A DNA stretch of 64,000 nt from Marinobacter nauticus. Lineage in GTDB: Bacteria; Pseudomonadota; Gammaproteobacteria; Pseudomonadales; Oleiphilaceae. The position numbers and the translations under genes were made by a program. Within the stretch, counting starts at the first letter, position 1, and the number at the start of each line of letters is the position of its first letter. The notes under the pieces are model-generated. The model saw only the letters and a program-made list of their open reading frames with translations. It did no database searches and had not been told where the DNA came from. Shown piece after piece: positions 592 through 5,939 of the stretch. The DNA lies in assembly GCF_003634635.1 (NCBI RefSeq), contig NZ_RBJB01000003.1, positions 744,001-808,000 on the forward strand, read 5' to 3'.

Positions 592-813
592 TTAGCTTAT
601 TTTGATAACCTTTCTAGCCCTCGGGCCTTTAGGCATGTTTTCTATTTCAAACTCGACTTTATCCCCTTCGACTAGCACTCTATCTCTTGTTAGAATATCG
701 TCGTAGAAAACAAAAACATCCTTTCCGGACTCTCTACGAATAAAGCCAAATCCCTTAATAGAATCGAAAGTACGCACAACACCAAAAAAACTTTCCTTAA
801 AACTCAAAGCCAA
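592..813 (-). CDS. Cold-shock-domain protein coupled to the retron-type RT
   Basis: A 73-residue OB-fold cold-shock domain. It has the RNP1-like segment KGFGFIRR and an RNP2-like DVFVFYDD, followed by EGDKVEFEIENMPKGPRARKV, as in CspA-family single-strand nucleic-acid binders. It ends at 592. The start is uncertain: TTG at 813, or TTG at 807, which overlaps the RT stop as TTGA and lies 8 nt after a GGGAG ribosome site. Either way it is translationally coupled to the RT at 804-1979, so it is probably a retron accessory protein binding msDNA or its RNA, not a housekeeping Csp. The partner role is inference. Base composition is AT-rich like the RT. Confidence 0.75.
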   Translation of the reverse strand: MALSFKESFFGVVRTFDSIKGFGFIRRESGKDVFVFYDDILTRDRVLVEGDKVEFEIENMPKGPRARKVIKIS

Positions 814-1979
814 TACTCCCTTTTATTAGGCACATTTGGATGGGCACTTTTCAGCATGCTTCTTAAGGCCTTAGACCGCCCCTTGTTCGTCCTAGAAAGC
901 AACCCCAACTTGTAATAAAGCTTATTAATTCTAGAAATATCTCCAGATTTATAGGTGTGGTTCCGCCTCAACTTTGCAATTTTTTGAACGTCAGCTGCAA
1001 TTTTTTGCTCCTCTAGAGCATCAATTGTCGGGAGAATAAGCCCCAAACGACGCCGAAGTTCTTTAGACTGATGGTGCCCTAACCTCGTCATCTTCGCCAC
1101 TTGACCAGAAACGTAATTCCAGAATTTATGATAAGAAGGATCACACGAGCTGGCTTGATATTTCTTTTCACATTCAAAGACAAGTTGACGAATATATCTC
1201 CGCTCGGACTTCCTCAGTTTTGGCTTTGCATGGCCTACCCATAACCCAGTCACGTCATAGGTATAAGCATGAGACCCTTTAATATAAACCTTTATCTTAT
1301 CTGAACGAGGCTTAAGATCGTACTTTTTGAAAAGGGCAATAACTCTTTCAATATACTCTTGAGTCGATTCCGCTGACGGCCGATCATTTGTCGATAACGT
1401 GACATCATCTAACAACCGACTATAAACAACGCCCCTTTGCCTAAAGTACGAAACGACATGATATTCGGAATTGTGAAAGACTAAATTAGCGACGTATGAA
1501 GAAGTACAAGCACCTTGGGGAACTCGCCCCCTCAAACAAACTAGCTTCGTGAGCAGCATCGAAACTTCATCAGGAAATTTAAATAAATACTTAAAAACAT
1601 CAAAAACATAATCAGATTTTATATTTCCGTAGAAGTTTTTAATATCTAAAACAATCAGACATTGAGAGTTAGCATGGATCTTTGCGTTCTCAACATAATC
1701 ACGCTTGGACTGATCATCACTTATTCCTCCTTGGAGATAAAGAGGAAATCTAACAGCTTCAAAGATTCGATCATTTATTCTCTTCTGTATCTTCTTTAAT
1801 TCGTACTTTGGCTCATAGACTGTACGAATCTTCCCAGACTTAGACACAATATTAAAGGATGTATAAGAGGAATTTGCTTTTTCTGCGAAGTCTAATAAAA
1901 GCTTGGGGTGGACGCCTAAAGTTTTAGCTAATGCGTCGAGGGAACCAATAGGTTTGTGAGGATAATAGGGTTTGTCCAC
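804..1979 (-). CDS. Retron-type reverse transcriptase
   Basis: A 391-residue group-II-intron/retron-like reverse transcriptase. Visible blocks: SGKIRTVYEP (RT1), NAKIH matching the retron NAxxH motif, VLDIKNFYGNI with the first metal-binding Asp (motif A), RVPQGACTSSYVANLVF (PQG block), YSRLLDDVTLS with the two catalytic Asp (motif C), and DVTGLWV matching the retron VTG motif. A basic C-terminal tail of about 130 residues follows. The start is GTG at 1979 with AAGGA upstream. Odd point: motif C reads LLDD where retrons usually have YxDD. The gene is AT-rich compared with the chromosome to the right. It likely makes msDNA from the structured RNA upstream as part of an anti-phage system; no activity can be shown from sequence. 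Confidence 0.85.
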   Translation of the reverse strand: MDKPYYPHKPIGSLDALAKTLGVHPKLLLDFAEKANSSYTSFNIVSKSGKIRTVYEPKYELKKIQKRINDRIFEAVRFPLYLQGGISDDQSKRDYVENAKIHANSQCLIVLDIKNFYGNIKSDYVFDVFKYLFKFPDEVSMLLTKLVCLRGRVPQGACTSSYVANLVFHNSEYHVVSYFRQRGVVYSRLLDDVTLSTNDRPSAESTQEYIERVIALFKKYDLKPRSDKIKVYIKGSHAYTYDVTGLWVGHAKPKLRKSERRYIRQLVFECEKKYQASSCDPSYHKFWNYVSGQVAKMTRLGHHQSKELRRRLGLILPTIDALEEQKIAADVQKIAKLRRNHTYKSGDISRINKLYYKLGLLSRTNKGRSKALRSMLKSAHPNVPNKREYWL

Positions 1980-2026
1980 TACACATCCTTGTTTTCAGAT
2001 AGAAGCAAAAAGAGGGGAGTCGGCAG

Positions 2027-2218
2027 TTATCCCATGAACATCCATTTAATAAACGTCACGATCAACAACCACCCAAGCTTAACGGCTGGAAACCCATACC
2101 GCTTTCGCTTTGTACCCGAGTCAACTTGCATTTCATCCTTCCCTTTCTTCTCAGTCAGGTCAGGACCGTTCTCGTTACCACTGATTGATACTTGCACTTC
2201 TAGCTTTAAATAGACCAT
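2027..2218 (-). CDS. 63-residue single-helix membrane protein upstream of the RT
   Basis: A 63-residue ORF with an excellent ribosome site: GGAGG five bases before ATG at 2218. The first ~45 residues are polar and charged (for example LTEKKGKDEMQVDSGTKRKR). The end, about residues 47-63, is hydrophobic and Trp/Phe-rich (KLGWLLIVTFIKWMFMG), so a C-terminal membrane helix is likely. It lies 47 bases before the RT start on the same strand, probably in one transcript. I recognise no family. Small membrane proteins act as toxic effectors in some retrons, and that is a reasonable guess here. The opposite-strand ORF over this region has no comparable start signal. Confidence 0.55.
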   Translation of the reverse strand: MVYLKLEVQVSISGNENGPDLTEKKGKDEMQVDSGTKRKRYGFPAVKLGWLLIVTFIKWMFMG

Positions 2219-2343
2219 AAGGTCCTCCGTATTTTAGTAGGTTTATGCTCACGTAGAGCGCCAGACCAAACTTCAACGGAACAGGAATTAAATGATTGAC
2301 TTCGGGTAGACTCCACTCTCTTACGCCAGACAACCGTCGACGA

Positions 2344-2507
2344 GCCGCCCGTGGGTGCCTGAAGCCGCGCGATGGGGCTCAGAACGGGGCGAACAAGTTC
2401 CCGGGAGGCCGGTCATGATCCTTTCGGATCGCCTAGAGGCTTCGACTTCCTGCCTAAACAAGTATCATCAACTAATAAAGAACAGCAAACGGGCGAATGA
2501 CACCCGC
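2344..2507 (-). ncRNA. Candidate retron msr-msd RNA
   Basis: A GC-rich stretch upstream of the retron genes, with nested complementarity when read on the minus strand. GGGTGTC (2499-2505) at the predicted RNA start can pair with GGCACCC (2353-2359) near the end, as a1/a2 arms do in retron RNAs. Inside, GAAGCC (2438-2443) pairs with GGCTTC (2361-2366). Local hairpins include GATCC-GAAA-GGATC (2417-2430) and GAAC-TT-GTTC (2391-2400). The ~160 nt length is typical for msr-msd. Against this, no clear conserved AGC around a branching G is visible, and a competing local hairpin (2490-2506) exists. Boundaries are approximate. Confidence 0.4.
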
Positions 2508-2513
2508 ACGGCA

Positions 2514-2543
2514 AATCTATTAAAAAAAAGGCAAGAGTGTCAA
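2514..2543 (-). promoter_or_regulatory. Sigma-70-like promoter for the retron-like operon
   Basis: On the minus strand a perfect TTGACA (2538-2543) is followed after 18 bp by TAGATT (2514-2519). The start of transcription would be near 2507, just before the first arm of the candidate structured RNA. A single promoter could serve the RNA, the 63-residue protein, the RT and the cold-shock protein. Confidence 0.5.
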
Positions 2544-3100: not shown

Positions 3101-3775
3101 TTAATCCGGTTCGATTCGTTCTGCCTGGCCGGTTTGCTCCAGGGTGGCGGGTGATCTTATGGGTTCTATCAGGAGGGGTTGCCGGATTCGGGTTTTGAGT
3201 AAGTCCTGGAATGGGTCTGTGTTGGTCAGGCTTGGGTCCAGCCACATGTCGAAGTCTTCCCGGTTGAGCATGAGCGGGATGCTTTTCGGGTGGATGTGGC
3301 TGAACCTGGGGTGTGGTGGCAGGGTGATGATGGTGAACGACGGTACCACTTCTTCCTGGAAGTCCCACAGCTCATACAGGCCGGCAAAGGCAATGGCGCT
3401 GTCGGCCGGATGGATGTTGTAGCACTGTTTGTGGCCTTTCTCGCCTGTCCATTCATGGAAGCCGCTGGCCGGTATGATGGCGCGCTGACTGTGAAACCGT
3501 TTCTTCCAGAGTGGGCTGGTGCCCAGGCTGCCCGATCGGGCGTTGAAGGTGCTGTACTTTGACGATGGGCGGTAGCCGGTGCCGTCTGGTTTGCGTTCTA
3601 TGAGCAGTGACCAGATGGCGTCCTGTAGGGTGCGGCTCTGGTGGGTTTCGTAGACGATCTGGGCTTTGGCTCCGGGGGCGATGTTAACGCGGGGCTCTAT
3701 CCGGAGCGGGATGCCGAGTTCGTCCAGGAGGCCCTGGACTAAGGGGTCATCGGATACGTTGAATCGGCCGCACAT
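3101..3775 (-). CDS. SRAP-domain protein (YedK/HMCES-like), copy 1
   Basis: A 224-residue SOS-response-associated peptidase family protein. It begins MCGRF, so Cys2, the residue that cross-links abasic sites in single-stranded DNA in YedK/HMCES, is exposed after Met removal. The ASGFHEW block carries the conserved Glu. The His block reads HIHPKSIPLML, a variant of the usual H-x-R-x-P. Family role: shielding abasic sites in ssDNA. It lies 15 bases downstream of the membrane protein gene at 3791-4192, as copy 2 does with its own partner. It differs from copy 2 at only nine residues by my count, so the duplication is recent. Confidence 0.85.
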   Translation of the reverse strand: MCGRFNVSDDPLVQGLLDELGIPLRIEPRVNIAPGAKAQIVYETHQSRTLQDAIWSLLIERKPDGTGYRPSSKYSTFNARSGSLGTSPLWKKRFHSQRAIIPASGFHEWTGEKGHKQCYNIHPADSAIAFAGLYELWDFQEEVVPSFTIITLPPHPRFSHIHPKSIPLMLNREDFDMWLDPSLTNTDPFQDLLKTRIRQPLLIEPIRSPATLEQTGQAERIEPD

Positions 3776-4192: not shown

Positions 4193-4318
4193 TTTTCACT
4201 CCTTTGAATCGGTACTGGAAAGACTACCCAAAGCTATCGTTAGCTAGCAACTGAGGCTCGAATTTCGTTCGCCCAAAACCATGGATCTTTTTTTAGCTCT
4301 TTTTTTAGGTCTATTTTT

Positions 4319-4327
4319 TGGTATAAT
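4319..4327 (+). promoter_or_regulatory. Extended -10 promoter of the toxin-antitoxin operon
   Basis: TGGTATAAT contains a perfect TATAAT with the extended TG-n element. The upstream region is T-rich with no clear -35 box, as expected for extended -10 promoters. It lies about 115 bases before the antitoxin start. Confidence 0.45.
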
Positions 4328-4440
4328 TTTTTTGTGCCGCCGAAATTAAGGGCAACATGATGAAGAAGCCGCTGAAACGATACGAAACACAAAGCGGCAA
4401 TAAAACCAGCACGAAGGATCACGGCACAGGAGAACCTTTA

Positions 4441-4731
4441 ATGAGAAGCCTATTTGCGAGGCTTGCGGCCACCATTTCGGAGCTTAAGGCTAATCCGAAT
4501 GAGGTGCTCAACCAGGCTAATGGCGAACCGATTGTGATCCTGAGTCACAACAAGCCGAGAGCCTATATGGTGCCTGTCGAGACATTCGAACAGATGCAAG
4601 AGCAGCTTGAGGATTACCGGTTACTCCAGGAGGCTCGCAAGCGTATGGATGATGAATCAATACCGGTGAGCATCAATGAGCTACGAGCTGGAATTCAAGA
4701 AAAAAGCGCTCAAGGAGTGGAACAAACTTAA
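4441..4731 (+). CDS. Phd/YefM-family antitoxin
   Basis: A 96-residue protein starting MRSLFARLAATISELKANP. It shows the N-terminal Phd/YefM DNA-binding fold: ATISELKANPNEVLNQANGE, then PIVILSHNKPRAYMVP, and an acidic, flexible C-terminal helix that would wrap the toxin. The start at 4441 has AGGAG upstream; an in-frame ATG at 4357 would add 28 residues unlike the family. Its 3' end overlaps the toxin gene by 56 bases, the usual coupled arrangement. Known role: neutralises the RelE/ParE-type partner and represses the operon. Such pairs often stabilise islands. Confidence 0.88.
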   Translation: MRSLFARLAATISELKANPNEVLNQANGEPIVILSHNKPRAYMVPVETFEQMQEQLEDYRLLQEARKRMDDESIPVSINELRAGIQEKSAQGVEQT

Positions 4732-4942
4732 CCCTACTGTTCAGGCAGAATTTCTGAACATTCTGGAACGCCGCCTGGTGAATCCGAGGGTCCCAAAGCA
4801 TCAACTGAAGGGATCTTCGGATTTCTACAAAATCAAACTGAGATCCCAGGGCTTTCGCCTGGTCTACCATGTAGACGATGGCAAAGTGGTTGTCACTGTG
4901 ATCACAGTTGGCCGTAGAGATACCGTTTACAAGTCCTTCTAG
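4676..4942 (+). CDS. RelE/ParE-superfamily toxin
   Basis: An 88-residue RelE-like toxin beginning MSYELEFKKKALKEWNKL. It has the family core: two N-terminal helices, LKGSSDFYKIKLRSQGFRLVYHV, and the C-terminal VVTVITVGRRDTVYKSF with basic and Tyr residues in the positions used for ribosome-dependent mRNA cleavage by RelE. It overlaps the antitoxin gene and ends exactly where the ssrA-tailed repeat begins (4942), so it sits at the end of an inserted element. RelE (mRNA interferase) is more likely than ParE from the GFRLVY and VGRRD segments. Confidence 0.88.
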   Translation: MSYELEFKKKALKEWNKLNPTVQAEFLNILERRLVNPRVPKHQLKGSSDFYKIKLRSQGFRLVYHVDDGKVVVTVITVGRRDTVYKSF

Positions 4943-5264: not shown

Positions 5265-5939
5265 TTAATCCGTTTCAATTCGTTCTGCCTGACCGGTTTG
5301 CTCCAGGGCCGCAGGTGATCTTATGGGTTCTACCAGAAGTGGTTGCCGGATTCGGGTTTTGAGCAAGTCCTGGAATGGATCTGTGTTGGTCAGGTTTGGG
5401 TCCAGCCACATGTCGAAGTCTTCCCGATTGAGCATGAGCGGTATGCTTTTCGAGTGGATATGACTGAACCTGGGGTGTGGTGGCAGGGTGATGATAGTGA
5501 ACGACGGTACCACTTCTTCCTGGAAGTCCCACAGTTCATACAGGCCGGCAAAGGCTATGGCGCTGTCGGCCGGGTGGATGTTGTAGCCCTGTTTGTGGCC
5601 TTTCTCGCCTGTCCATTCATGGAAGCCGCTGGCCGGTATGATGGCGCGCTGACTGTGAAACCGCTTCTTCCAGAGTGGGCTGGTGCCCAGGCTGCCCGAT
5701 CGGGCGTTGAAGGTGCTGTACTTTGACGATGGGCGGTAGCCGGTGCCGTCTGGTTTCCGTTCTATGAGCAATGACCAGATGGCGTCCTGCAGGATGCGGC
5801 CCTGGTGGGTTTCATAGACGATCTGGGCTTTGACTCCGGGGGCGATGTTAACGCGGGGTTCTATCCGGAGCGGGATGCCGAGTTCGTCCAGGAGGCCCTG
5901 GACTAAGGGGTCGTCGGATACGTTGAATCGGCCGCACAT
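5265..5939 (-). CDS. SRAP-domain protein (YedK/HMCES-like), copy 2
   Basis: 224 residues, about 96% identical to copy 1 (nine differences by my count, for example HSKSIP instead of HPKSIP in the His block). Cys2, the FHEW block and overall length are intact. It lies 67 bases downstream of a membrane protein gene (6007-6684) paralogous to the one before copy 1, so the pair was duplicated as a unit or acquired twice. The whole unit lies between the two ssrA-tailed repeats. It probably protects abasic ssDNA or handles mobile-element DNA; the specific role in the island is unknown. Confidence 0.85.
   Translation of the reverse strand: MCGRFNVSDDPLVQGLLDELGIPLRIEPRVNIAPGVKAQIVYETHQGRILQDAIWSLLIERKPDGTGYRPSSKYSTFNARSGSLGTSPLWKKRFHSQRAIIPASGFHEWTGEKGHKQGYNIHPADSAIAFAGLYELWDFQEEVVPSFTIITLPPHPRFSHIHSKSIPLMLNREDFDMWLDPNLTNTDPFQDLLKTRIRQPLLVEPIRSPAALEQTGQAERIETD

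Follow-up and report, generated by a model that had tools for sequence, protein, structure and literature searches.

How retrons of the Se72 class arrest the cell was called unknown in a 2023 paper (PMC10732053). The locus described here lies on the minus strand of a 64-kb stretch of Marinobacter nauticus DNA, hereafter the window. By its profile matches it belongs to type V (the Se72 class) of the retrons, anti-phage elements already known from bacteria. What is new here, on comparison of related loci, is a small open reading frame (ORF) nested within the covarying fold of the retron RNA; an RNA usually taken as non-coding thereby appears to code for a protein that is unannotated in the relatives examined. 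This nested protein suggests where the stopping power of the class may lie and how it may be held in check. No description of an ORF nested in type V retron RNA was found in a literature search whose coverage stopped short of the primary type V papers. Anti-phage activity is reported for Se72 in two papers (PMC10732053, PMC12409349), and a 2'-5'-linked priming guanosine was not observed for Se72 according to a 2019 review (PMC6868368).

Loci and methods

The type V set comprised 25 loci. The 19-locus analyses excluded six near-duplicates (L029, L038, L040, L041, L015 and L136), and the 18-locus leader analysis excluded L002 as well. Rows were dropped for L003 and L028 (own genome), L017, L020-L022 and L027 (duplicates), L025 (reverse transcriptase cut at the contig end, without upstream sequence), L026 (partial reverse transcriptase, 33%) and L016 (phage pro147, 31%). 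Among plasmid records, 135 had any match to the reverse transcriptase (RT) and 34 had at least 80% of it; 10 were taken, 7 of which were type V. Counterparts of the small ORF were sought at the corresponding position of each locus as open frames that begin with ATG and span 55-80 codons. The closing repeats a1 and a2 were scored by duplex energy and as ungapped 12-mers; MAFFT gapped the joined a1/a2 pieces.

Organisation and class of the locus

The protein-coding part of the locus is composed of the following features:
2224..2228, minus strand: ribosome site GGAGG of the small ORF (sequence)
2027..2218, minus strand: small ORF, 63 amino acids, probable single membrane helix at residues 46-62 (sequence and structure model)
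804..1979, minus strand: retron RT of type V, GTG start, 391 amino acids (profile and motifs)
592..813, minus strand: cold-shock-domain protein, Se72 family (profiles)

All parts named in the original prediction were in place on the minus strand. The RT matched the PADLOC profile RT_V at 544.9 bits (2.8e-164); the next-best classes were RT_IV (237.5 bits) and RT_VI. Both retron regions, X (NAxxH) and Y (VTG), are present. NAxxH is a mark of retrons. VTG is likewise described as one in the 2019 review (PMC6868368). The motifs previously read from this RT were kept across 11 aligned type V RTs, in which N98, H102, PQG 154-156, DD 191-192 and VTG 243-245 were invariant and A99 nearly so.

The gene after the RT does encode a cold-shock domain (Pfam CSD, 2.9e-18; PADLOC CSD_V, 7.5e-27). 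It runs from 592 to 813 or 807 with alternative TTG starts, both overlapping the RT stop, and also matches NCBIfam NF038236 (retron_eff_Se72; 94.3 bits, above the cut-off of 82). With RT_V matched alongside CSD_V and retron_eff_Se72, a cold-shock partner is therefore to be expected, and the earlier assignment to a defence-class retron with such a partner is borne out. From its domain, the protein is a putative binder of RNA or msDNA; cold-shock proteins are chaperones in general. The NCBI family name reads 'retron Se72 family effector protein'.

The original prediction asked whether both small genes accompany homologues of the RT, and this check did not refute it: the small ORF recurred in 25/25 type V loci and the cold-shock gene in 22/25, the other three loci being cut. 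The four-part layout, earlier called unfamiliar, thus consists of real parts but is ordinary for the type V RT class.

Small ORF

The 63-residue ORF and its ribosome site were confirmed as predicted. Its unannotated counterparts in the 25 loci have 59-74 codons, with start and stop in register and the frame open throughout, although this openness is partly selected because an open frame was a condition of the search. The Markov chance of an open frame was 0.004-0.0385 per locus in 12 divergent loci (product ~5e-23 before search freedom). Four close pairs pooled showed a synonymous excess (p 2.9e-4); taken singly, two of the four lacked a coding signal (p 0.15 and 0.51). Third codon positions were more conserved than those of the RT in 7/7 pairs, e.g. 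0.76 vs 0.49 for L014/L018. The protein sequence is highly variable, with 14-25% identity to that of the window across nine relatives. Conservation of QVDS as a protein motif was considered and rejected, since the QVDS codons form arm b2 of a helix in the RNA.

A hydrophobic end of ~20 residues exceeded shuffled composition in 11/19 loci; it was not significant in the other 8, L009 and L166 being worst. A weak structure model (mean pLDDT 56.2) places a helix at residues 46-62, and the product is probably a membrane protein with one helix, as had been proposed. No relative of the small protein was found in the viral contigs scanned with it, and a DNA-level search of plasmids gave no match.

Across type V loci, 16-60 nt separate the stop of the small ORF from the start of the RT. 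By eye, several RT starts, e.g. in L010 and L011, had no evident ribosome site. Hiding of the small ORF's own ribosome site was inconsistent: only in 12/19 loci was the site more closed than the regional average.

RNA fold enclosing the ORF

Four arms define the fold:
2309..2320, minus strand: a1, 5' arm of the closing inverted repeat, pairs with a2
2294..2309, minus strand: b1, pairs with b2 inside the small ORF
2112..2129, minus strand: b2, codons around QVDS, pairs with b1
2010..2021, minus strand: a2, 3' arm of the closing inverted repeat, pairs with a1, 5 nt past the small-ORF stop codon

For the stretch 1977-2520 the fold energy was -188.2 kcal/mol (z -3.26), and none of 100 shuffles folded as well. 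The original prediction of a structured stretch holds in this respect; its separation from the small ORF does not, since the paired RNA encloses the ORF. The a1/a2 helix closes around the ORF, and b1 in the leader pairs with the ORF's middle codons. The structured RNA is upstream of the RT and bounded by a1/a2, but contains an ORF, unlike in the usual definition.

Mean a1/a2 duplex energies were -22.8 kcal/mol within the same locus, -15.5 with other loci and -13.5 with shuffled arms. Own pairing was the best in its row for only 7/19 loci in the first pairing test and for 16/19 with ungapped 12-mers. For b1/b2, 88.8% of cells were paired vs 25.0-45.7% when slid, and covariation was 0.718 vs 0.305 in shuffles (reached by 0/500); own pairing was best in 11/19 loci. 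Neither the pairs with two-sided change (9, reached by 47/500 shuffles) nor the number of pair types (416/500) was above shuffles.

Recoding of the small ORF gave a mean z of -3.15, with 14/19 loci below -2 and 18/19 below -1, compared with -0.33 for 57 RT pieces (1 below -2) and -0.13 for 18 cold-shock genes (2 below -2). By this measure, the codon choice of the small ORF is tuned to the RNA fold.

A hairpin at the ORF's 3' end was suggested as msd by its position and by subfamily folds resting on 2 to 5 sequences each. Comparison across loci gave it no support, own pairing being best in only 3/19, so this assignment is conjecture.

Leader RNA and promoter-like site

Upstream of the ORF, the following elements were recognised:
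2514..2543, minus strand: promoter-like site, TTGACA - 18 nt - TAGATT, 10/12 hexamer matches, not above chance
2490..2509, minus strand: leader hairpin GTGCGGGTGTCATTCGCCCG, covarying in the 18-locus leader alignment
2474..2484, minus strand: boxA-like motif TGTTCTTTATT, with GCTCTTT or TGTTCTTT in 13/18 loci
2409..2446, minus strand: conserved leader domain GCC-loop-GGCGATCC-loop-GGATCATGACCGG, covarying pairs
2325..2333, minus strand: motif TTGTCTGGC, copy 1 of the GTCTGGC direct repeat, deviating in L166
2260..2268, minus strand: motif TGGTCTGGC, copy 2 of the GTCTGGC direct repeat (motif comparison across loci)

The TTGACA promoter claimed earlier is there as a site, starting at 2543 with its second hexamer ending at 2514, but such sites are no more numerous than in shuffles (3 in 4.5 kb vs 4.5 +/- 2.2), so that the promoter is only plausible. 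The boxA-like motif may resemble the antitermination leaders of rRNA operons. Within the conserved leader domain, TGACCG or TGACCC occurred in 17/18 loci, L166 being the exception; the domain is missing from L002/L029. The GTCTGGC copies are 59-76 nt apart, start to start, in the 19 loci, and the interval between them is another candidate for the copied stretch. Rfam gave 0 matches within the window. In a leader-motif scan of viral contigs, the RT accompanied the motif only in L136 among the 120 stretches listed.

Comparison with known systems

Retron-Sen1 (Se72; type V), from small enterobacterial plasmids, has its RT and cold-shock families in common with the window. L011 and L041, which carry the NCBI Se72 effector name, share a1/a2, b1/b2 and the small ORF with it; the window copy, unlike Retron-Sen1, is chromosomal, and its RT is ~39% identical to that of L011. 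The 2019 review (PMC6868368) mentions a repeat-flanked ORF of Se72 as a possible alternative msr; its Se72 section (section 8) contains no description of a membrane protein or of covariation.

The RT classes nearest to that of the window are type IV, with Retron-Eco6 (Ec48), and type VI. The Ec48 accessory is described in one study as a predicted two-helix membrane protein, which showed no toxicity there (PMC8989520). Six type IV-like loci, the RT_IV profile being confirmed for L005 and L033 only, carry a hydrophobic protein of 229-243 amino acids after the RT. After the RT of the window, the cold-shock protein stands in place of such an Ec48-type two-helix protein of ~230 residues. Six type VI-like loci have an upstream ORF of 77-85 amino acids that is flanked by inverted repeats and folds better than its recoded versions, and thus seem to nest another small ORF in RNA likewise. 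In contrast to the window, their small protein has another sequence, an HTH protein replaces the cold-shock protein and the RT comes last.

In DRT2, a defence RT, the RNA contains effector-coding information, as two papers describe (PMC12039810, PMC11100668); there the gene is assembled by the RT's repeated copying, whereas the ORF of the window is complete in the RNA. Against the Drt2 family, the RT scores 23.5 bits (cut-off 390), and the RT here is a retron RT. In type I toxin-antitoxin systems, a small hydrophobic protein is under RNA control exerted by an antisense RNA. The locus would resemble them in its probable small membrane-helix protein and putative RNA control, but control would here be in cis, by the fold and the RT; Rfam, with its 0 matches, gave no antisense RNA.

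Explanations for the nested ORF

We give an even chance to the reading that one stretch of transcript is both the retron RNA and the gene of a small membrane protein, and that this protein is the effector, gated by the RNA and the RT. Se72 and Ec48 are both reported in two papers to be activated by RecBCD inhibition (PMC10732053, PMC12409349), and the Ec48 accessory is a predicted membrane protein; by this analogy we infer that the small protein acts on the membrane. An RNA that is folded and held by the RT would exclude one under translation, so the RT with RNA or msDNA would keep the small protein low or bound. A phage that disables RecBCD would disturb this complex, the small protein would be made or freed, and the infected cell would stop. 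The cold-shock protein would be a chaperone rather than the toxin of its database name, and would open or stabilise the structured RNA or the DNA copied from it. Should the effector indeed be the small protein, retrons of this class will have been cloned or annotated with it, intact or broken, without anyone noticing. A single RNA serving as RT template and messenger would couple sensing to effector release in a new way.

It is fairly unlikely that the cold-shock protein is the effector and the small ORF a leader peptide, on which ribosomes control RNA folding and coupled RT translation. The family name, the short distance to the RT, the RT starts without an evident ribosome site and the great variability of the small protein are in its favour, but the name is annotation, cold-shock proteins are generally chaperones, and a pure leader would need neither the hydrophobic end nor the synonymous excess. 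We also consider it unlikely that the small protein is an effector held at the protein level by RT-msDNA, with the overlap of gene and RNA serving compactness only. Its polar first part could contact a cytosolic complex, and toxins of other retrons are neutralised by RT and RT-DNA according to one study (PMC8989520); the tight codon-level embedding and its apparent counterpart around an unrelated ORF in type VI-like loci argue against this. That the ORF is not a gene and the RNA alone matters is highly improbable: the conserved third positions and the two silent close pairs would suit it, but the frame open and in register in every type V locus, the low Markov product and the pooled synonymous excess do not.

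A further reading for types V and VI, which we regard as distinctly unlikely, is that the RT template RNA is a toxin messenger and reverse transcription the antitoxin. The RT would copy the 3' part of the RNA and RNase H would remove the copied RNA, thereby destroying the toxin message; a phage disturbing the RT or its product would leave the message to be translated. In ordinary retrons, the msd lies beside a2. In type V, the 3' part that would be copied adjoins a2 and carries the codons of the membrane helix.

Locus composition and retron class

A retron-like operon comprising a membrane protein, a reverse transcriptase (RT) and a cold-shock protein had been predicted, and all of its named parts were present in the minus-strand block at 592–2543.

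592–813, minus strand: cold-shock gene
804–1979, minus strand: RT gene
2027–2218, minus strand: small open reading frame (ORF) of 63 residues
2309–2320 and 2010–2021: arms a1 and a2 of the closing inverted repeat
2294–2309 and 2112–2129: arms b1 and b2 of a second helix, b2 inside the ORF

The RT scored 544.9 bits against the PADLOC model RT_V, compared with 237.5 for RT_IV and 227.3 for RT_VI; the protein downstream matched CSD_V of PADLOC and scored 94.3 against the NCBIfam Se72 effector family (cut-off 82). Because RT_V was the best model by far and the partner was of the CSD_V/Se72 family, the system is assigned by sequence to the type V retrons, an established class. None of the 14 PDB sequences matching the RT (E up to 0.001) is, by sequence, a type V retron RT; the best match of the RT was Ec86 (1.3e-19), and that of the cold-shock protein was the RNA chaperone 3i2z (2.9e-11). 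The RT catalytic motif (1404–1415) reads LLDD instead of YxDD and was invariant in the 11 aligned type V RTs; YVDD occurred in the type VI-like locus L042 and LVDD in the type IV locus L005.

Abundance and conservation of the small genes

The class was sparse in the genomes searched. The window RT matched 1 of 369 genomes in the class sample (E ≤ 1e-60), namely its own; the RT alignment at 1e-85 matched 4 of 398 genomes in the phylum sample, two being the window's own and one of the same genus, and in three families it matched 1/46, 3/152 and 1/195 genomes. The analysis covered 25 type V loci (the window, 2 genome contigs, 6 further genomes, 9 viral contigs and 7 plasmids), with RT identities to the window of 65–39% in ten aligned relatives and 35% in the relative L166. 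The pairing of both small genes with the RT was borne out: the small ORF was found in 25/25 loci and the cold-shock gene after the RT in 22/25, the remaining three being cut (L038 and L019 at the record or contig end, L040 beside blaCMY-2/ISEcp1).

The small ORF starts with ATG, spans 59–74 codons and stops 16–60 nt upstream of the RT start in every locus; the search criteria (55–80 codons, end at −70 to −10) mean that its openness was partly selected. In the two other forward frames, the 19 distinct loci together contained 120 and 126 stops; for 12 divergent loci, a Markov model put the probability of an open frame at 0.004–0.0385. Six plasmid records (PLSDB, gene table incomplete) carried no annotated feature over the ORF, and in 30 E. 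coli records the features under the matches, 21 of which covered at least 80%, were the RT and cold-shock gene or none. The encoded protein is poorly kept (14–25% identity to that of the window in nine relatives, 34% in L004); what is conserved is that it begins polar and ends hydrophobic. The hydrophobic end exceeded shuffled composition in 11/19 loci and did not in 8/19. The AlphaFold model of the window protein (mean pLDDT 56.2) had a sole helix, which was C-terminal (residues 46–62).

Position of the small ORF within the retron RNA

Arm a1 lies downstream of TTGTCTGGC, and the complementary a2 lies at or just after the ORF stop, upstream of the RT. Mean duplex energies were −22.8 kcal/mol for same-locus arms, −15.5 for other-locus arms and −13.5 for shuffled arms. 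In this loose duplex test the own pairing was best in just 7/19 loci; as ungapped 12-mers it beat all others in 16/19, and uninterrupted helices scoring ≥9 were formed by 14/19 own and 78/342 foreign pairs. The second long-range helix, b1/b2, was proposed by RNAalifold on a sequence-only alignment; b2 is the stretch coding QVDS in many of the small proteins, and on visual inspection of the window TACCCGAAGTCAA could be paired with TTGACTCGGGTA around one bulged A. Paired cells amounted to 88.8%, compared with 25.0–45.7% when the partner was slid by 1–3 columns; covariation was 0.718, against 0.305 ± 0.035 in shuffles (0/500) and 0.079–0.220 in slid versions, and 50 cells against 15.2 carried two-sided change. 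The number of pairs with two-sided change (9/10; reached by 47/500 shuffles) and the number of pair types (416/500) did not exceed shuffles. The helix was found on its own test alignment and is thereby favoured, as it is by relatedness in the shuffle control; the gap between b1/b2 and the slid versions was nevertheless large. In a cruder own-versus-foreign test, the own pairing was best in 11/19 loci. Together, these pairings place the small ORF inside the retron RNA of type V loci.

Codon usage bears on both roles of this stretch. Third codon positions were more conserved in the small ORF than in the RT in 7/7 pairs. Compared with random synonymous recoding, the real ORF folded better than the mean in 19/19 loci (mean z −3.15; 18 loci below −1, 14 of them below −2), and its 3′ part alone gave a mean z of −1.46 (12/19 below −1). 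The controls stayed near zero, with means of −0.33 for 57 RT pieces (1 below −2) and −0.13 for 18 cold-shock genes (4 below −1, 2 below −2), so the codons serve the fold. An excess of synonymous change in four close pairs (p 0.0008, 0.009, 0.15 and 0.51; pooled 2.9e-4) suggests that they also serve a protein, in a test that is conservative because the fold restrains synonymous sites.

Upstream lies a covarying hairpin, followed by GCTCTTT or TGTTCTTT in 13/18 loci (hairpin and motif at 2474–2509 in the window), and the conserved leader domain ended in TGACCG or TGACCC in 17/18. The hairpin and motif resemble the boxB–boxA leader of rRNA operons, which suggests that a long structured transcript is antiterminated. 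The conserved leader is missing from L002 and its copy L029, a transposase-like ORF end standing there instead (L002 about 4200–4620), and both retain the small ORF, RT and cold-shock gene; the leader is therefore dispensable, or was lost there.

Comparison with types IV and VI

Six type IV-like loci, RT_IV being confirmed for L005 and L033, had a hydrophobic protein of 229–243 residues downstream of the RT, and inspection alone revealed no type V-like ORF upstream of it. Six further loci (L030, L031, L032, L035, L042 and L043) had a helix-turn-helix (HTH) gene before the RT and an ORF of 77–85 residues first; of the three RTs scanned, that of L042 fitted RT_VI best, and RT_V slightly exceeded RT_VI in L030 and L032. 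Their small ORFs folded better than recoded versions (mean z −3.55, n = 6). Pooled codon usage inflates the scores of L030 and L032, whose HTH genes also came near −4; the other four ORFs gave −2.0, −0.7, −3.0 and −2.3, and three other HTH genes 0.5 to 2.7. A 12-base arm pair scoring >11 surrounded the ORF in 6/6 loci and was the own best in 4/6 (mean 12.2 versus 9.8). Types V and VI may thus share the feature of an ORF embedded in the retron RNA; a sample of six loci is too small for a firm conclusion.

Proposed mechanism

For Se72, a type V retron, a 2019 review (PMC6868368) raises the possibility that a repeat-flanked ORF acts as an alternative msr, likens a second ORF to cold-shock proteins and calls the DNA product unusual. 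RecBCD inhibition is reported to activate Se72, as it does the type IV retron Ec48, with arrest by mechanisms described as unknown (PMC10732053, PMC12409349). The Ec48 accessory protein is predicted to have two membrane helices and was not toxic in one study, which also reports that host RNase H1 shapes the RT-DNA of most retrons tested (PMC8989520). A conserved nested membrane ORF was not described in the literature searched; primary papers lay outside that search, so novelty is unproven. What would be new is the nested gene, an arrangement variant within a known retron class.

Since a2 is at the stop codon and b2 is mid-ORF, a ribosome on the small ORF must open the fold, and conversely an RT-held fold must impede the ribosome. 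A single RNA would have two mutually exclusive uses, translation of the small ORF or folding under the hold of the RT; the small protein would be the effector and the cold-shock protein a chaperone. From the Ec48 analogy, the membrane helix and universal presence we infer the effector role, and we likewise infer gating by RNA and RT and the msDNA position. The original prediction of a membrane effector is better founded than its author could know.

Genomic surroundings

The retron adjoins a repressor-like gene (phrog_147; 88–363) at the margin of a filamentous-phage-like prophage; the part of this prophage left of the window (L169, 3369–12364) carries an integrase, a Zot domain and excisionase-like and coat-like genes, and the retron may belong to its cargo. 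Two near-identical genes for SOS-response-associated peptidase (SRAP) stand just upstream of the retron together with a truncated third copy of the gene end, an arrangement that may reflect an insertion or duplication, and a toxin–antitoxin pair lies close by.

2684–2933, 3101–3775 and 5265–5939: SRAP copies, full and truncated (by eye from translations)
4357–4942, plus strand: Phd/YefM antitoxin (5.8e-16) and ParE toxin (2.2e-11) domain pair

In L012, L013, L014 and L018, the ORF after the cold-shock gene resembles, by eye, P2-type baseplate protein V, and these retrons may be cargo of P2-like prophages. On plasmid L040 (2951–4951) the RT adjoining blaCMY-2/ISEcp1 is cut short, and on plasmid L044 (1971–4921) the retron RT lies near blaNDM-1.
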